NCBI GenBank assembly: GCA_905235525.1
Contig: CAJOLW010000013.1
Coordinates: forward strand, 1-61,508
Origin: an uncultured Bacteroidaceae bacterium
GTDB taxonomy: Bacteria; Bacteroidota; Bacteroidia; Bacteroidales; Bacteroidaceae
Length of the DNA: 61,508 nt
Direction of reading: 5' to 3'
Below, in pieces: positions 10,525 to 61,508 of this stretch; position 1 is the first letter of the stretch, and every line of letters begins with the position of its first letter. Below the pieces are notes generated by a model, which saw nothing but the letters and a program-made list of their open reading frames with translations, ran no database searches and was not told the DNA's origin. A program made the position numbers and the translations under genes.

Positions 10525-12585
10525 CTATAGCGGGTCAACGTCGTAGTAAATGTTGAGGTTTTTGGCAACAGGCAAAGAGAGAATCTGTTGCTGGATGGCG
10601 ATGAGATTTTTTCTAACTTTCTCGGTAGAAGTCTGTCGTTCAATCTTGAGCATGATCTTGCGGATGTAAAGGGAATGGAGGCGTGCAATAGGAGGGCGGT
10701 CTGGACCCAGGACACGCTCTCCGAAGATTTGGCGAAGGCGCTCTGCCATGTCGGATGCAAGGTGCTCAAGCAGTTCATCGTCTTTGTGGCGCAGATAGAC
10801 GTAGATGAGGCGACGAAATGGTGGGTAGTGGAACAGTTGGCGCTCCATCATTTGGGTGTAGAACATCTGCCAGTAGTCGCCTTGGGTAATTTGCTGGATG
10901 ATGTCGCTATCTGCCGAACGGGTCTGGAGGATGACGTGTCCGGAGGTGTTGTTGCGTCCAGCACGTCCTGCCACTTGACTGAGTGTCTGGAAAGTGCGCT
11001 CATAACTGCGGAAATCAGGCAGGTTGAGCATGGTGTCGGCATCGAGGATTCCCACAACGGAAACGTGGTCGAAATCAAGTCCTTTAGTGACCATTTGGGT
11101 GCCGATGAGAATGTCGGATTTATGTTCGGAGAAGTCGTTGATGATGCGCTCGAATTGTGTACGGGTGGTGGCTGTGTCGAGATCCATGCGGAGAGTGCTG
11201 GCGTGAGGAAAAAGGGTGGCGATTTGTTCTTCGATGCGCTCGGTGCCGGTGCCGACGGAGACGAAGGAGGACTGGGCGGGTGAACCGCCCAGGGCAAGTT
11301 GGGAAGGGGGAGGGGAGCAGGCGGGGCAGCGTTCGGGGATGCGGGTTGTGTAACCGCAGTAGTGGCATGTGAGGGTGGAGGTTTTTTTGTGGAGCGTTAA
11401 GGTCACATCGCAATGAGGACATCGGGGCACCCATCCACAGGTTTTACATTCGATGAAAGAAGAAAAGCCGCGTCGGTTCTGGAAAAGGATGATTTGTTCC
11501 TTGTGGTCGAGAGCGGTTTGTATCACTTCGATGAGTCGAGGGGAGAACACCCCTTTCATTTGGCGTTTGCGCTTGGCTTCCTTCGTATCGACAATTTCGA
11601 TGGTGGGCAGTTGCATGTCGCGGTAACGCTGTGTGAGTTGGACGTAACCGTATTGACCTTTGTGCGATAAGTGATACACTTCGAAAGATGGGGTGGCGGT
11701 GCCCAGAAGGGTCTTGGCGCCAAACATTTGTGCCAGCATGATAGCAGCATTGCGTGCATGGTAGCGTGGCGCAGGTTCTTGCTGCTTGTAACTTTGCTCG
11801 TGTTCCTCATCGACAATGACCAATCCGAGGTTCTGGAAGGGGAGGAAGATGCTGGAACGCACGCCGAGAATGAGTTGGTAAGGTTGATCGGAGGCTTGCC
11901 GTTTATAGACATCGAGTCGTTGGGCGTCGGTGAACTTGGAGTGATAGACTCCCATGCGGTCGCCAAAGAAACGGTGGAGACGCTCGGTAATTTGAGTGGT
12001 GAGGGCTATTTCTGGCAGGAGGTAGAGGACTTGCTTGCCTTTTGCCAAATAGTTGTTGATGAGGTGAATGTAAATCTCGGTCTTTCCCGAAGAGGTGACT
12101 CCGTGAAGGAGGGTGACATTCTTGGAAAGGAAGGAGGTCTCAATCTCTGCAAGGGCTTTTTCTTGTGCAGGGTTGAGGGTTGATGGCTGGGTGTTCGGAT
12201 CTGAGGGTTTGCAGACGGCTTTGTTGCCTCTTCTGATGCGTGTCGATTCCTTTAATGCCGCTTCATCTTTCGGCTTCATGGCTCCAGGTAGGGCAGCCTT
12301 CATTACATCACCGAGTGGACAGAGGTAATAGTTGGCAATCCATTGCCAGAATTTGAACTGCTGTTCATTTACAACAGGGTGGTCGTCAAGCACTTCCATG
12401 ATGCTCTTTACCTCCACCCCCTGAGGGACATTGTTGTGTGTGCAGTGCACCACACCTGTATAGATTTTGTTCTTGCCAAGGGGCACAACAACTCGACAGC
12501 CTCGCATCACTCGAGTTTCCATGTCGGAAGGAACGAGGTATGTGAAGCTGTCGAATGGTATAGGGAGTATGATGTCTGCAAACAT
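10525..12585 (-). CDS. priA: Primosomal protein N' (replication restart helicase)
   Basis: PriA reloads the replicative helicase at stalled forks. The 686-residue protein has the 3'-DNA-binding domain (res ~1-100), helicase Walker A GVTSSGKTEIY (~163), DEEH box IVDEEHEQSY, the zinc module CKTCGWVPRCPHC...CHYCGY...CPAC, and helicase motif VAGRAGR. Two short peptides look foreign to the family: NTQPSTLNP (~132-140), just before the helicase core, and PPPSQLALGGSPAQ (~423-437), right after the last zinc Cys. The DNA for the first (12169-12195) resembles a repeat that also encodes NTQPSALNP in the HmuY-like gene. The DNA for the second contains a perfect hairpin, CTGGGCGG with CCGCCCAG (11273-11293). 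ATG at 12585 is preferred over the TTG at 12588. It lies 3 bp after the OMP gene. Confidence 0.93.
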   Translation of the reverse strand: MFADIILPIPFDSFTYLVPSDMETRVMRGCRVVVPLGKNKIYTGVVHCTHNNVPQGVEVKSIMEVLDDHPVVNEQQFKFWQWIANYYLCPLGDVMKAALPGAMKPKDEAALKESTRIRRGNKAVCKPSDPNTQPSTLNPAQEKALAEIETSFLSKNVTLLHGVTSSGKTEIYIHLINNYLAKGKQVLYLLPEIALTTQITERLHRFFGDRMGVYHSKFTDAQRLDVYKRQASDQPYQLILGVRSSIFLPFQNLGLVIVDEEHEQSYKQQEPAPRYHARNAAIMLAQMFGAKTLLGTATPSFEVYHLSHKGQYGYVQLTQRYRDMQLPTIEIVDTKEAKRKRQMKGVFSPRLIEVIQTALDHKEQIILFQNRRGFSSFIECKTCGWVPRCPHCDVTLTLHKKTSTLTCHYCGYTTRIPERCPACSPPPSQLALGGSPAQSSFVSVGTGTERIEEQIATLFPHASTLRMDLDTATTRTQFERIINDFSEHKSDILIGTQMVTKGLDFDHVSVVGILDADTMLNLPDFRSYERTFQTLSQVAGRAGRNNTSGHVILQTRSADSDIIQQITQGDYWQMFYTQMMERQLFHYPPFRRLIYVYLRHKDDELLEHLASDMAERLRQIFGERVLGPDRPPIARLHSLYIRKIMLKIERQTSTEKVRKNLIAIQQQILSLPVAKNLNIYYDVDPL

Positions 12586-43215: not shown

Positions 43216-43330
43216 GAAGTGAAAAGTGAAGAGTGAAAAGTGAAAAATTTAAGTATCCAGCCATGCAGATTATTCCCTCATTGGCAAAAGTAATTTAGAT
43301 TTTTCACTTTTCGTTTTTCACTTTTTACTT
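43216..43330. repeat. Heptamer inverted-repeat element, copy A
   Basis: The left arm 43216-43250 has four AAAGTGA-type units; the right arm 43298-43330 is its inverse (TTTTCAC units). About 47 bp of unique sequence lie between. The arms could form a ~33-bp hairpin. The right arm overlaps the uxuA stop codon. Related elements are at 58103-58200 and 60113-60214. Confidence 0.85.
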
Positions 43331-56425: not shown

Positions 56426-58011
56426 TTTTTTGCCTCCTTTGCTCTTTCCCTTGCATGACGCGCAGCCGTCTGGATGCACTCACGACGAGGAATAATCACT
56501 GAAACTCCTTTATATTCAATCTCTTCTTTCAAGATGCGGGTGATTTCGGGCATGTTCTTGGGAAGTGGAACAACCACACGCACATGCTCAGGCTCTACAC
56601 CGAGACCGAGACAGATGGCCTCGAACTTGTTCGTGCCGGCAGAATCCTGTCCACCTGTCATACCTGTGGTCAGGTTGTCAGAGATGACGACGGTGATGTT
56701 CGACTTGTCGTTCACGGCATCCAGCAGACCCGTCATGCCTGAGTGTGTGAAAGTGGAGTCACCGATGATTGCCACAGCAGGGAACAAGCCTGCATCAGCC
56801 GCACCCTTCGCCATGGTGATGGAAGCACCCATGTCCACGCAGGAAGAAAGGCTCTTGAATGGTGGCAATGCCCCCAGCGTGTAGCAACCGATGTCACCAA
56901 ACACGCGGTAATCGGGATATTCAGCCAGCACCTGGTTCAGTGCGGTATATACATCGCGGTGTCCGCAACCCTGGCAGAGTTGTGGAGGGCGACCAGCAAG
57001 GTTCTTCGCATTGTCAAATGCAGGACCTGAGGGCTTGCTAAGTGCCTTGGCCACACTGTCAGGTGTCAATTCGCCTGTGCGTGGCAGGTCACCTGTCAAT
57101 CGTCCCTTGATGGGGTAGTCAGCACCCACCATGCCGGCGATGGCCTCTTCCACCACGGGTTGACCGTCTTCCACCACCAAGATGGATTCATGTTCAGCGG
57201 CAAATGCCTTGATAGCCTTTGGAGAGAGAGGGTATTGCGAAACCTTCAGGATGTCAGCATTGTCACCCACGTTCTCCTTCACATAGTTGTAACCGATACC
57301 ACAGGCAACGATGCCCAATTTCTGACCGACTGATTCTTTCTTGTTATAGGCAGAAGTCTCGCTGGCTTTCTGGAATGCTTCTTGCTTCTCCAGCAGATCC
57401 ACATACTTCTTTCTTGCGATGCCGGGCAGCAGCACCCACTGGTCGGTGCTGGGGTTGAGTGTGTTTTCTGCTTGAAGTTCACCCACCTCCACGGCAGCGC
57501 GGCTGTGTGCCAGACGAGTCACGATGCGCAGCAGCACAGGCACTTTCAGACTCTCTGACATCTCAAATGCTGAAGCCACCATATCGTATGCCTCCTGCTG
57601 GTTCGATGGCTCAAACACAGGGATGAGTGCGAACTTTCCATAGAAACGGCTGTCCTGCTCATTCTGTGAAGAGTGCATGGAAGGGTCGTCGGCTGCCAAC
57701 ACGATGAGACCGCCGTTCACACCTGTGATGGCGCTGTTCACAAAAGCGTCTGCACACACATTCATGCCCACATGCTTCATGCACACCAAAGCACGCTTAC
57801 CTGCATACGACATACCGAGAGCGGCTTCCATCGCCGTCTTCTCATTGGTACACCAACGGCTGTGGATGCCACGTTCGCATGCCACTTTGTTGGTCTGAAT
57901 AAATTCAGTGATTTCGGTGGACGGAGTGCCTGGATAAGCATATACGCCAGAGAGTCCGGCGTTAATTGCTCCCAAGGCGATGGCTTCGTCGCCTAACAGT
58001 AATTGTTTCAT
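56422..58011 (-). CDS. iorA: Indolepyruvate:ferredoxin oxidoreductase alpha subunit
   Basis: The 529-residue TPP enzyme subunit shows the N-terminal pyrimidine-binding half (GVYAYPGTPSTEITEF, GMSYAGKRALVCMKHVG) and the C-terminal TPP half (PQLCQGCGHRDVY, FGDIGCYTLGALPPF, GDSTFTHSGMTGLLDA). Archaeal IorA has a further C-terminal domain with two 4Fe-4S clusters. Here the protein stops after IIPRRECIQTAARH with no CxxCxxC motif, so electrons must leave by another route or partner. First gene of the operon; a -7 element lies ~80 bp upstream. Confidence 0.93.
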   Translation of the reverse strand: MKQLLLGDEAIALGAINAGLSGVYAYPGTPSTEITEFIQTNKVACERGIHSRWCTNEKTAMEAALGMSYAGKRALVCMKHVGMNVCADAFVNSAITGVNGGLIVLAADDPSMHSSQNEQDSRFYGKFALIPVFEPSNQQEAYDMVASAFEMSESLKVPVLLRIVTRLAHSRAAVEVGELQAENTLNPSTDQWVLLPGIARKKYVDLLEKQEAFQKASETSAYNKKESVGQKLGIVACGIGYNYVKENVGDNADILKVSQYPLSPKAIKAFAAEHESILVVEDGQPVVEEAIAGMVGADYPIKGRLTGDLPRTGELTPDSVAKALSKPSGPAFDNAKNLAGRPPQLCQGCGHRDVYTALNQVLAEYPDYRVFGDIGCYTLGALPPFKSLSSCVDMGASITMAKGAADAGLFPAVAIIGDSTFTHSGMTGLLDAVNDKSNITVVISDNLTTGMTGGQDSAGTNKFEAICLGLGVEPEHVRVVVPLPKNMPEITRILKEEIEYKGVSVIIPRRECIQTAARHARERAKEAKK

Positions 58012-58088
58012 ATAATCGAAGTTTTGTTGTGATTACGTAAAAGACATAAAAAACATGTTTCTCAAGCAGGTAAAGCCCGAAAAACATG

Positions 58089-58096
58089 CAAAGATA
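58089..58096 (-). promoter_or_regulatory. -7 element of the ior/paa operon
   Basis: The minus strand reads TATCTTTG. The region where the -33 box should lie is the heptamer repeat arm of element B, so that repeat may have replaced the native upstream promoter sequence. Confidence 0.6.
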
Positions 58097-58102
58097 CAAA
58101 AA

Positions 58103-58200
58103 AAAGTGAAAAGTGAAAAGTGAAAAGTGAAAAATCTCTGTTGCTCGTCATTCAGGCCGTTGGAAACATTGATTTTTCACTTTTCACTTTTCACTTTTCA
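58103..58200. repeat. Heptamer inverted-repeat element, copy B
   Basis: The left arm 58104-58137 has four AAAGTGA units then AAAATC; the right arm 58171-58200 is its inverse. 34 bp of unique sequence lie between. The right arm contains the stop codon of the TonB receptor gene, and the left arm abuts the ior promoter. Confidence 0.88.
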
Positions 58201-60231
58201 TTCGATTTTCTCGATGTCCACTGATACACCTACCATTAGGTTGATACCATCGGTGAGGGGACTGTTGAAATAGTGATACTTGGGCTTGTAATTGAGCAGG
58301 TTGTCAAGGGCTGCTGTCACCTTGAATGCCTTGCCGATGCGTTGGACGGCTGAGAGTTTCCAAAGGGTGTAGGCAGGGTAGTGGATGGTGCTGGTGCCTT
58401 TAGATATATCGTAGTAGTCAACGAACTCCACGTTCTTTACGGCTGAGAGGAAACGCCCGTTGAGCGAGAGACGGAGACCGTAGTTGCGGGTGATTTGCTT
58501 GTCCCAGTCGATGCGGGCTGTGAGGGAGTGGTGACGGGCAGGAATGTACTGGTTGTTGATGGTATGCCCTTCTTTGTCCTTGGGAAATCGCTCGTTGGTG
58601 TAAGCATAGGAGAGTTTGGCATTGAGTCCGTTGTTCCACCGGGCTTGTATGGTTGCTTCGCCGCCATAGACGGAATAGTTGGCAAGGTTGGTGTAGTCGA
58701 GATAGAGTTGCTTGTCGTCGCCAGGCAGATAGTGGGGAACGCCCGTGGCGAGTTTGTTATGCACATTGTTATAGTAGGCAGCGAGGGTGAAGTTGTAATG
58801 TCCCTTGGTGTAGTCGGCGGAGGCGTTGAGGTTGTGGCTCACCTCCGACTTGAGGTTGGGATTGCCTTGAATGATCCAGATGCCCTCCATGTCGAAGTTG
58901 TAGTAGCGTTCCTTCAGGGCAGGCGAACGGAAGCCCATGCCGTAGCCGATGCGTAGGTTGAGGTTGTCGATGGGTTGGTAACGTACGGAAAGTTTTGGCG
59001 TGAAATGCGAGTCCTTGCTGTCGGAGAAGTAATCATAACGCACAGCACCCACCACCTCCCATTGAGTGTTGACGAGCCAATCGTATTGGGCATAGGCATT
59101 GAAGGTATTCTGACTTTCCGTTCGGTTGCCCAGGTTCTTGTTCATCAGGTAGTCATGCATGAAGTCTGCCCCGGCAGTCAAGACGCTACCACTATTCCAA
59201 TAGTGATTGTAGAGCCCTTTGAAGATGTTCTGTACATTGCGGTAGTCACGCACATCAAGACGTGTGATTTTTTGGTAGTCGGACTTGTCGTATTGGTCGA
59301 AGGAGTAGGAGAGTTCAATGTTGTCGTCTTTACTGATGTTCCACAGTCCTTTGAGCCCGGCACTGAAATCTCTGAATCGTTCAGGGGCATCGGCGACACG
59401 GGTTTGTTCACGGTAGAAATAACCTGCCCTGCCAATGAGTTTCAGTTGATCATTCACGATGTATGTGAGTCTGTCCTTCACGTTCCATGTGCAGTCGCCA
59501 TAGATGGTGGTCACCACTTGCGTGGCGGGGTTCTCAGCATTGTTTACATGGATGTTGTCAATGGAGGTGTGATTCACATTCAGCATGTTGTGCAACCGCT
59601 TTCTGTTCACTCCAAACGAGCCTCCCAATCTCCGTTCGTTATAACGTGCCAAGCGTCCATTCAGATTCAGTGTCCATGGTTCTGTACCTTCCTTTGTGAT
59701 GATGTTGATGACACCCCCTCCTGCATTGCTCCCATAGAGGGCTGAAGCGGCACCCTTCACAATTTCAATACGTTGTACGTTTGCCATGTTTAGACGGGTG
59801 AAATCAACGTCATCCATCGTTTCGCCAGCCAGCCGTTCTCCATCCATGAGGAAGAGGATGCCCTGACCGCCAAAGCCGCACAGGTTCATGTGCTTCAACT
59901 GATTCATGGCATAAGAGAACTCCACACCTGGCATTTCCTGCTGAAGCAGGTCTTCCACGTTGGTGGCATCCACCTTCTCTATGTCAGCGGCCGTGATGAG
60001 GCGTGTTTGGATAGGAGCATCCTTCAGCAGTTTCGGTGTGCGTGTGCCCGTGATAACCACGTCGTTGAGAAGCAATGTGGAGTCTTGCTGTTGTGCATGA
60101 GAGAGGAGGGGGAAAGTGAAAAGTGAAAAGTGAAAAGTGAACAATAAAAGTATCCTCCATACGGATGGTTGGTGGAACCGATTTTTCATTTTTAACTTTT
60201 TACTTTTCACTTTATAATCGGTTGCAGTCAT
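58198..60231 (-). CDS. TonB-dependent haem receptor (HmuR-like)
   Basis: The 677-residue outer-membrane receptor has an N-terminal plug (LLNDVVITGTRTPKLLKDAP ~55-75, a TonB-box-like start, and VDATNVEDLLQQEMPGVEFSY) and a 22-strand barrel. NPNL (~IQGNPNLKSE) and FRSP (GFRSPALKERYY) match the NPDL/YRAP haem-receptor signature of HmuR-type proteins. Directly upstream is a HmuY-like haemophore gene, so the pair should import haem. The signal peptide is odd: its basic start (KVKSKKLKMKNR) and hydrophobic core (LFTFHFSLFTF) are encoded by repeat element C (60113-60214). Starts at ATG 60231 or 60189 are both possible. The stop lies in element B. Confidence 0.88.
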   Translation of the reverse strand: MTATDYKVKSKKLKMKNRFHQPSVWRILLLFTFHFSLFTFPLLSHAQQQDSTLLLNDVVITGTRTPKLLKDAPIQTRLITAADIEKVDATNVEDLLQQEMPGVEFSYAMNQLKHMNLCGFGGQGILFLMDGERLAGETMDDVDFTRLNMANVQRIEIVKGAASALYGSNAGGGVINIITKEGTEPWTLNLNGRLARYNERRLGGSFGVNRKRLHNMLNVNHTSIDNIHVNNAENPATQVVTTIYGDCTWNVKDRLTYIVNDQLKLIGRAGYFYREQTRVADAPERFRDFSAGLKGLWNISKDDNIELSYSFDQYDKSDYQKITRLDVRDYRNVQNIFKGLYNHYWNSGSVLTAGADFMHDYLMNKNLGNRTESQNTFNAYAQYDWLVNTQWEVVGAVRYDYFSDSKDSHFTPKLSVRYQPIDNLNLRIGYGMGFRSPALKERYYNFDMEGIWIIQGNPNLKSEVSHNLNASADYTKGHYNFTLAAYYNNVHNKLATGVPHYLPGDDKQLYLDYTNLANYSVYGGEATIQARWNNGLNAKLSYAYTNERFPKDKEGHTINNQYIPARHHSLTARIDWDKQITRNYGLRLSLNGRFLSAVKNVEFVDYYDISKGTSTIHYPAYTLWKLSAVQRIGKAFKVTAALDNLLNYKPKYHYFNSPLTDGINLMVGVSVDIEKIE
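60113..60214. repeat. Heptamer inverted-repeat element, copy C, inside the receptor gene
   Basis: The left arm 60113-60140 is exactly four AAAGTGA units; the right arm 60180-60214 is the degenerate inverse. About 39 bp lie between. Translated on the minus strand it gives the n- and h-regions of the receptor's signal peptide. Because 7 is not a multiple of 3, loss or gain of one unit would shift the frame. Confidence 0.88.
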
Positions 60232-60232
60232 C

Positions 60233-60991
60233 TCAGTATGGGTATTTGTAATTGATGGTGAGGCAACACTTCACACCTGCCGCATTCTGGTAGTTCTCCA
60301 GTTGGATGGCTGCATAGGTGTCATCGGCAAAACGAACGATGAACACGTGATTGTTGAGCGTGAAGGTAGGAGGTACAGGAGGAATTTCCAGTTTGAGCCA
60401 CGAGGAGAGCACGGGGTTCACTTCGATGCCCTGATTGCCTACGAACCCTTGCAGCATCTGTTCACGGATGGTCCATACGTCCAACTCGTTCCATTCGTCT
60501 TCTGTGAAGGTTGCATTGACAAATGCATCACTGCTTTCGGGCAGGTCACTCATAGAGGTGTAGGGCGTCTCATACGCTGCTCCACCGTTGGTGCGCACGT
60601 TATTGCGATGCACAGCGATGTGCCATGTGTCAGGCTCAGGTTGTGCTTCGGTTGGAGTGAAACTCTGGAACTCGTGGTTGGAAAGACCGGCCCCGAACAC
60701 ATCATACCAATAGGTATAGATGCCGGGTTTAGGGTTTAGGGCTGAGGGTTGGGTGTTGAGGCTTGGGAGTTCTTCGGTGGGGATGTTCATTTGAACAAAG
60801 CCCTCCTTCGTGTTCAGCAGGTCGATATAGTACCATGCTGTCCAACTGGAGGCATCCACATACAATTGCCCCTCTCTCATCGTCATGTCCCCCGACGGTT
60901 CATCATAGATGTCGTCGAGGATACCATGACAGGCTGATAGAGCGGAAAGCATCACGGTGATTCCGATAATATGCAGTGGTTTATTTAGCAT
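60233..60991 (-). CDS. HmuY-like haem-binding lipoprotein
   Basis: The 252-residue protein has a lipobox (LSALSAC, Cys21). Its beta-rich body ends FIVRFADDTYAAIQLENYQNAAG...NYKYPY, the C-terminal pattern of the HmuY family of surface haemophores. It should capture haem and hand it to the receptor encoded next. Residues 79-89 (NTQPSALNPKP) are encoded by a TTTAGGG-rich repeat (60727-60763, on the plus strand) and resemble the NTQPSTLNP insert in PriA, so this is probably an in-frame insertion. The stop is followed by the receptor ATG after 1-2 bases. The start lies at the end of the calycin-like gene (TGAATG). Confidence 0.8.
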   Translation of the reverse strand: MLNKPLHIIGITVMLSALSACHGILDDIYDEPSGDMTMREGQLYVDASSWTAWYYIDLLNTKEGFVQMNIPTEELPSLNTQPSALNPKPGIYTYWYDVFGAGLSNHEFQSFTPTEAQPEPDTWHIAVHRNNVRTNGGAAYETPYTSMSDLPESSDAFVNATFTEDEWNELDVWTIREQMLQGFVGNQGIEVNPVLSSWLKLEIPPVPPTFTLNNHVFIVRFADDTYAAIQLENYQNAAGVKCCLTINYKYPY

Positions 60992-61508
60992 TCAGTTGAT
61001 GATTTGGATGCCAGTTTCAGTGGCTTTCACCTCAATCTCGCTGTTCTCATCGAAAGTGTAGTCGCCGTCCATCGTGACTGCACCATTTCTTTCTGCCTTG
61101 AAGTGCATGGTCTGTTCCTTGTCCAGTTTGCCGTATTCCTTATAAAAGCGGTTGTTTGCCTCGTCGAAATACAGACCTTCGATGGTCACCTTGCCCAAAG
61201 TCAGGTTGCCGATGGCTGTCTCCATGAGCATGTGCTCTGGAATTGTCACATTGATGGTTCCGTCGGGATTGGGAGTCACCTTGCAAGTGATGTCTGCGTC
61301 ATAAGGACCATAGGTGTCACCCACCTTTACGGAGTTGGTACCAGCGTAGTTGCCATTCAGTTGGCAAGCCTTTGATGCTTCACCTGCAAAGAATGAGATG
61401 GTGGTAACGCCCATCTTGCCGAGTTGGATGGTGATGGTTGGGTTTGTCACGTCACCGTTGATGGTGGCATCATAAGTGTTGGCGTTGCCGCTGTGAATAT
61501 CAGTCATG
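60992..61508 (-). CDS. Calycin-like domain protein, 3' part (cut by window edge)
   Basis: About 171 residues are visible from the right edge to the stop at 60992. The beta-rich sequence (NTYDATINGDVTNPTITIQLGKMG, here DATINGDVTNPTITIQLG; VDGDYTF-like MDGDYTFDENSEIEVK) resembles the calycin-like domain found in Prevotella surface proteins, often near haem-uptake genes. A Met at 61507 is probably internal. It sits directly upstream of the HmuY-like gene (TGAATG junction), so it is part of the same operon. Its role, perhaps ligand binding, is inferred. Confidence 0.6.
   Translation of the reverse strand, partial: MTDIHSGNANTYDATINGDVTNPTITIQLGKMGVTTISFFAGEASKACQLNGNYAGTNSVKVGDTYGPYDADITCKVTPNPDGTINVTIPEHMLMETAIGNLTLGKVTIEGLYFDEANNRFYKEYGKLDKEQTMHFKAERNGAVTMDGDYTFDENSEIEVKATETGIQIIN

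Follow-up and report, generated by a model that had tools for sequence, protein, structure and literature searches.

An in-frame dispersed palindrome with heptamer arms as the probable signal peptide of a predicted haem receptor in a Bacteroidaceae genome

Heptanucleotide arrays lie in the promoters of the hmw adhesin genes of Haemophilus influenzae, where a varying number of units tunes transcription, and the locus described here resembles them in having 7-bp tandem units beside a surface-protein gene. The RPE palindromes of Rickettsia, which are also similar to the element described below, are dispersed, measure about 100 to 150 bp, and occur both in frame in conserved genes and between genes, according to the accessible part of the report (PMC2229807). 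In Yersinia, the RU-2/YPAL element provides a predicted signal peptide in one gene, that of the putative exported protein YPO1552, in the available sections of two accounts (PMC2759123, PMC2229807). The TAACTGA repeats of Beggiatoaceae, cyanobacteria, and some Bacteroidota are heptamer arrays found mostly outside genes; one strand is stopped in every frame, and the opposite strand is fully open and occurs within some open reading frames (ORFs) (accessible text of PMC4679880). The GGGNATC repeats of Xanthomonas and Nostoc are likewise abundant 7-bp arrays, with four units preferred (accessible text of PMC4692102). For the gene neighborhood, the nearest counterpart is the hmuYR locus of Porphyromonas gingivalis, in which hmuY is followed by the gene for a TonB-dependent receptor (accessible text of PMC12106395).

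We analyzed a window that comprises one whole contig (C13, 61,508 bases) of a 2.77-Mb genome from an uncultured Bacteroidaceae bacterium. Gene calls and Pfam matches placed a hmuY-like gene (60233..60991, minus strand; Pfam HmuY, 3.8e-34) next to a TonB-dependent receptor gene (58198..60231, minus strand; Pfam TonB_dep_Rec_b-barrel and Plug) in the HmuYR-type order, with a single base between the hmuY stop codon and the receptor ATG. Translation from the ATG at 60231 gives 677 amino acids, and a second in-frame ATG at 60187-60189 is a possible alternative start. The receptor scored 156.6 bits against the haem-receptor model TIGR01785, below the cutoff of 316.85; its best solved relative was the colicin I receptor, with ShuA a weaker match. 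The hmuY neighbor suggests that the ligand is haem. The predicted signal peptide covers residues 1 to 46 (MTATDYKVKSKKLKMKNRFHQPSVWRILLLFTFHFSLFTFPLLSHA; 60094..60231, minus strand), an extent derived from the translation, an alignment of orthologues, and a putative SHA|Q cleavage site. Promoter and terminator scans over 57900-61508 gave results at the shuffled level, and Rfam 15 at gathering thresholds returned only two tRNAs in the window and no match to the element. GGGTTTA heptamers are also present within the hmuY coding region (60725-60771, encoding SALNPKPG), and TRF located further 7-bp arrays at 12169, 21000, 38823, and 47381, several heptamer types being present in this one contig.

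The 5' end of the receptor gene contains four perfect AAAGTGA units at 60113-60140, as the sequence-only reading had stated, and TRF reported the array at 60113-60141 with a period of 7, 4.1 copies, and 100% matches. An inverted-repeat search identified two arms, 60113-60145 and 60181-60213, of 33 nucleotides (nt) each, which are 88% complementary and lie 35 nt apart; the element thus has terminal inverted repeats, which is one criterion for a MITE. On the minus strand, in the sense of the gene, the T-rich arm (60113..60145) consists of four TTTCACT units and, by sequence, TRF, the inverted-repeat search, and translation, makes up most of the h-region. The array itself corresponds to nt 91 to 119 of the receptor ORF and encodes FTFHFSLFTF, as had been proposed apart from one leucine too many at the start. 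The core between the arms (60146..60180, minus strand), assigned to a short-core class by alignment with other copies, encodes approximately FHQPSVWRILL. In the A-rich arm (60181..60213, minus strand) the in-frame TGA expected of a plain AAAAGTG array is missing, and the arm reads as KVKSKKLKMKN if translation begins at 60231. With that presumed start both arms are read in frame, which supports the proposal that the basic n-region comes from the other arm of the inverted repeat. The further claim that the repeat supplied the entire signal peptide holds in that a dispersed repeat supplied the leader; the ILL that precedes the array and the PLLSHA that follows it are not array sequence.

The reading of such an element as a signal peptide appears to follow largely from its composition. 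A tandem TTTTCAC array is free of stop codons in its three frames and gives FSLFTFH from every one of them, because 7 and 3 have no common factor, and a tandem AAAAGTG array is lysine rich (KVKSEK) in every frame and has a TGA every 21 nt. Since a palindrome shows its A-rich arm first in either orientation, a copy located behind a start codon presents an n-region and then an h-region. Six receptor alleles with a repeat-built leader (L119 to L122, L143, and L146) were inspected at the DNA level; in all of them the frame that starts at the ATG one base past the hmuY stop runs through both arms, and this coding frame is without the TGA of the A-rich arm. Frame 1 is stopped in 6/6 of the same alleles and frame 2 in 5/6. 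Examined by eye and with a Kyte-Doolittle window, the leaders appear to have the layout of a Sec signal peptide, with a putative basic n-region, a hydrophobic h-region, and a candidate small-X-small cleavage site or lipobox. The best 12-residue window had a median of 2.42 in array leaders (n = 21) versus 2.64 in the others (n = 69; p 0.006), with ranges of 1.77 to 2.85 and 1.82 to 3.35, respectively, one array value falling just below the range of the others. By this crude measure, the array leaders are slightly less hydrophobic than other leaders. The 5' end of the predicted haem receptor gene is an in-frame copy of a dispersed palindrome, whose arms likely form the n-region and h-region of the signal peptide.

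Further copies of the element lie nearby. A second copy (58102..58200, unstranded; TRF and alignment) supplies the region of the receptor stop codon with its right arm, and its left arm faces the promoter-like box TATCTTTG of the next gene (58089..58096, minus strand, by sequence), which we take to be a Bacteroidota-type -7 box motif. A third copy (43217..43330, unstranded) is intergenic and was recognized by TRF, alignment, and a covariance model. A search of the host genome for the exact double unit gave 50 occurrences; sorted manually, these fall into 26 places, of which 3 are leaders and 2 lie inside membrane proteins. A reversed-pattern control is uninformative for AAAAGTGAAAAGTG, because reversing it yields the same array, but the gapped paired-arm pattern does have a valid control: the strict version matched 5 places in the genome (6 matches per strand), with no control matches. 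Aligned copies share, besides the arms, a core that resembles AATCTAAGTTACCTGCCATCCGGAT..AGGTAACTTAGATT. The window copy and that of L143 seem to be oppositely oriented by the asymmetry of their cores, an assignment decided by one or two bases. A covariance model built from 20 copies, 18 of them from the host genome, and scored on up to 99 candidates per genome had matches in at least 40 of the 45 genomes of the genus and in at least 12 of the 14 best genomes. It gave at least 84 matches in the host genome with both strands counted, and therefore at least 42 places. Across the family, the triple unit was found in 45/301 genomes, representing 7 of 30 genera. Like RPEs, the element has dispersed inverted arms around a common core, and its in-frame gene copies are absent from some orthologues, as observed for the receptor, DUF4292, and DUF3108 families.

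Copies of the element may be promoter associated, since arrays adjoin Bacteroidota-type -7 boxes, as at 58089-58131 (minus strand) in the window. The motif TAnnTTTG was located within 45 nt downstream of 15 of the 32 T-strand arrays of the host genome, versus 1.7% of positions drawn at random from these stretches, mostly at a distance of 9 to 11 nt or at that distance plus 7 or 14. By eye, the inverted repeat at L026:1480-1605, L115:1445-1600, and L116:11500-11620 does not end with the arms but continues across the spacer and the -7 box on either side. The spacer letters differ between copies and match between the arms of a copy, which hints at arm-to-arm correction.

For the receptor family, we collected the best 30 loci from 45 genomes of the genus, and a repeat-built leader was found in 6 of them. 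The sequence of the array differs among these: the T-rich arm consists of heptamers in the window and in genome G027 but is an 8-bp array (TTCATTTK) in G030 and G031, G022 has TTTTTAG-like units, and G041 (L146) uses another palindrome as its leader, counted by eye because it is below both the lag-7 and the lag-8 thresholds. One-arm heptamer arrays with various units lie between hmuY and the signal peptide in L123, L126, L136, L140, and L142, and two short arms lie there in L130 (all by eye). At this junction the units of L123, L126, L136, and L140 are TTGAAAG, GGTTATA, GGTATGA, and AAGTTGA, respectively, with the period and place kept and the unit changed. Most of the remaining loci have ordinary leaders such as MRHLFLSIIKPLLLSIICACSAAFSA; many orthologues thus carry a different signal peptide rather than a repeat-free copy of the same one, in agreement with the initial proposal. 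In five array-free orthologues the ATG lies 2 to 4 nt past the hmuY stop. An in-frame ATG is absent from 8/30 leaders, two with arrays (L140 and L142) and six array free (L131, L134, L135, L141, L144, and L145), and all except L145 have an in-frame GTG or TTG. The six array-free cases, five of them with TTG or GTG, suggest that non-ATG starts are likely to be common at the hmuY-receptor junction.

The metagenome-assembled genomes RUG204, RUG242, and RUI029 (L064, L031, and L084) have leaders equal to those of L120, L121, and L122. On the receptor tree, in which 43 of 79 rows are unlabelled, a few database proteins had been dropped beforehand, and the labels of the P rows come from peptides alone, the leader label changes at least 8 times, and 6 of these changes are forced by well-supported branches. 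When labels were shuffled on the tree, the mean was 10.1 changes, and 45 of 500 shuffles were as low as observed. In view of these changes of label, a single insertion at the receptor was rejected. The receptor bodies of L122 and L126 are near-identical and their leaders unrelated, which makes recombination of the leader as likely as repeated insertion.

Two more arrays of the host genome are leaders, those of a DUF4292 lipoprotein (L007) and a DUF3108 protein (L116). DUF4292 had a match in 42 of the 45 genomes of the genus, and 30 loci were examined. Its leader in G027 is MKNRFFTFHFSLFTFLLMLTLASC, with similar forms in G039, G033, G023, and G043; the leader is mixed in the host genome, degenerate by eye in G018 and G011, and ordinary-looking in most others. 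These leaders use mainly one arm, and that of the host genome is 33 nt longer than that of G027 and remains in frame. A second dispersed repeat (CACTTTTCAAGCayACTTGAAAAAACATTTC..TTTGGTCACT), joined to some arms in L004, L007, L021, L115, L186, and L213, forms part of the host's own DUF4292 leader. DUF3108 had a match in 43 of 45 genomes, in G022 only via the repeat, and the 30 loci examined showed two core classes and several unit types alongside ordinary leaders. Residues 44 to 79 of the DUF3108 query matched the receptor leader of the window (E 2.9e-6). One DUF3108 leader class is marked by AAATTTGCTACCGCA, a sequence that is itself dispersed: it was found in 16 of 45 genomes, against no control matches, and frequently forms inverted pairs with a spacing of about 42 nt. 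The palindromic core AAATTTGCTACCGCA..TGCGGTAGCAAATTT also reads as the DUF3108 leader KSEKFATA..CGSKFFTFHFS in L279, L285, L290, and L291. Among the 133 distinct arrays in the loci examined there were three further array-built leaders, those of the exported-looking proteins L156, L173, and L210, with Pfam scores below the cutoff on 110 residues each; they are listed as GH16-like, BNR_4-like, and TPR, and L156, from another genus, is GH16-like by eye. Arrays also occur inside membrane proteins, namely CbiB (L002) and an MFS transporter (L111, L185, and L219), including in-frame four-unit arrays at L002:1489-1516 (minus strand) in CbiB and L111:1501-1528 in the MFS transporter.

To measure the periodicity of leader regions, we took from each of 90 loci (30 per family, three gene families) the 115 nt whose end lies at or close to the mature start, and used stretches 300 nt downstream as controls. 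The score was that of the best 35-nt window, with a threshold of 0.75 identity at lag 7. This threshold was reached in 22/90 leader regions versus 0/90 controls (Fisher p 1e-7), a rate biased by the relatedness of the loci and by the choice of two of the three families for an array at that place in the host genome. At other lags the same leader regions gave counts of 1 (lag 6), 3 (lag 8), and 0 (lag 9). The 22 regions comprised 7 receptor, 5 DUF4292, and 10 DUF3108 loci, and four of the seven receptor arrays (L130, L136, L140, and L142) precede the signal peptide or sit at its very start.

Hydrophobic residues and T-rich codons are normal features of signal peptides, so that an ordinary leader might simply look repetitive. 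Such a coincidence is vanishingly improbable given the perfect four-unit array, the matching opposite arm, the genome-wide family, and the excess at lag 7, and it was ruled out by the core common to copies outside genes. Heptamers might instead have grown locally at the junction rather than arriving with a dispersed element. Core-free, one-arm arrays in L123, L126, L136, and L140 (by eye; lag-7 values of 0.71 to 0.79) and the turnover of unit type and length at one site are consistent with local growth, but the window copy shares both arms and the core with dispersed copies, and receptor and DUF3108 leaders match each other across arm and core; we regard this origin as distinctly unlikely for the window copy. 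A role for the palindrome in RNA, with a stem between hmuY and the receptor tuning the product ratio through attenuation, mRNA protection, or a hidden start and the leader as a by-product, is a less remote but still unlikely account. The leader RNA of the window folds better than shuffled sequences (z about -4.4 to -4.1), as do those of L143 (-6.6), L146 (-4.4), and L120 (-2.4), and for P. gingivalis mRNA secondary structure has been cited in the hmuY-hmuR interval (accessible text of PMC12106395). However, z is only -0.8 in L121 and -1.2 in L122, both of which keep the coding frame; values of about -2.8 to -3.8 were obtained for L125, L128, L130, L139, and L148, which are without a palindrome-built signal peptide; and DUF4292 leaders are mainly one armed. 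A hairpin contributing to the hmuY-to-receptor ratio alongside the coding role is possible.

The sequence-only reading had raised the possibility of phase variation, in which slipped-strand change of one unit would toggle the receptor. The tandem unit inside the reading frame (four copies, 60113-60141) is indeed 7 bp, not a multiple of 3, and the part of the claim concerning the effect of a slip stood up: the other two frames of the receptor ORF stop 29 or 42 codons on, giving a truncated product. Whole-unit differences between species were seen by eye at 4 or more of 15 non-coding sites, and the arrays of L140 and L142 lie before the signal peptide with no in-frame ATG, the in-frame TTG or GTG codons notwithstanding. 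However, all 21 array-built leaders picked by hand (6 receptor, 5 DUF4292, and 10 DUF3108) were in frame from an ATG, so that the off-frame unit counts expected in relatives were found in 0/21 (one genome per species). At the receptor there are four units both in the window and in G027, where one unit is altered. DUF4292 has a run of four units in G027, G043, G033, and G023 (with one altered unit in each of G033 and G023), the longer leader of the host genome speaking against strict constancy; the MFS gene array has four in three species, and the ATG is also absent from the six array-free receptor leaders. Four units are, moreover, a short array for slippage. The alleles are related, each species is represented by one genome, and L140 and L142 are ambiguous, so that this evidence counts against frequent switching, although a switch within a species may still occur. 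Phase variation was rejected as the main reading, there being no clear off-frame alleles across species, and we consider such a switch very unlikely here. The case also cautions against labelling 7-bp arrays in reading frames as phase variable before their units have been counted.

From these comparisons of sequences, the best reading is that a repeat element has been co-opted repeatedly, under constraint of frame, as a predicted signal peptide. A copy of the palindrome that lands behind a start codon would provide a basic n-region and, after it, a hydrophobic h-region. Insertions of this sort would persist in genes whose exported products require a signal peptide and disappear from other places. 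After recruitment, the frame is kept, presumably by selection, while unit sequence and unit length drift, and conflict in the tree suggests that the leader is probably also exchanged between species by recombination, separately from the receptor body. More tentatively, and with the balance somewhat against it, heptamer-armed palindromes might be mobile, orientation-independent, and nearly frame-independent secretion-signal cassettes that are reused genus-wide in unrelated exported proteins. Co-option of this kind would show concretely how repeat DNA may turn into part of a protein, with base composition and a 7-bp period alone leaving one strand stop free and hydrophobic in every frame. It offers a testable model for the origin of new signal peptides and would account for the unusual leaders, FTFHFSLFTF and KVKSEKFATA among them, that proteins of these bacteria carry.

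In the literature searched, largely without subscription papers, we found no report of repeat-built signal peptides in Bacteroidota or of repeats recruited repeatedly as leaders in several conserved protein families throughout one genus. The accessible text on P. gingivalis hmuYR (PMC12106395) does not mention a repeat-built leader. In contrast to the hmw arrays, the array described here forms part of a coding sequence, is short, and keeps the frame in the alleles examined. The GGGNATC repeats differ in being G-rich, quadruplex forming, and under-represented in coding regions (accessible text of PMC4692102), and the TAACTGA repeats are direct repeats without an inverted arm or core, whose copies in ORFs belong mainly to hypothetical proteins or protein ends (accessible text of PMC4679880). 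RPEs come from another phylum, have no heptamer arms, and are not described as signal peptides in the available part of the account (PMC2229807). The Yersinia case concerns one predicted exported protein of 144 amino acids with no tandem heptamers, as far as the accessible descriptions go; unlike RU-2, the element described here is found in conserved protein families across a genus, has arms of tandem 7-mers, and is one for which the frame hardly matters. In-frame palindromes and heptamer arrays with one open strand are therefore already known, and what appears to be new, judged from the literature searched, is their unusually wide recurrence as predicted leaders.
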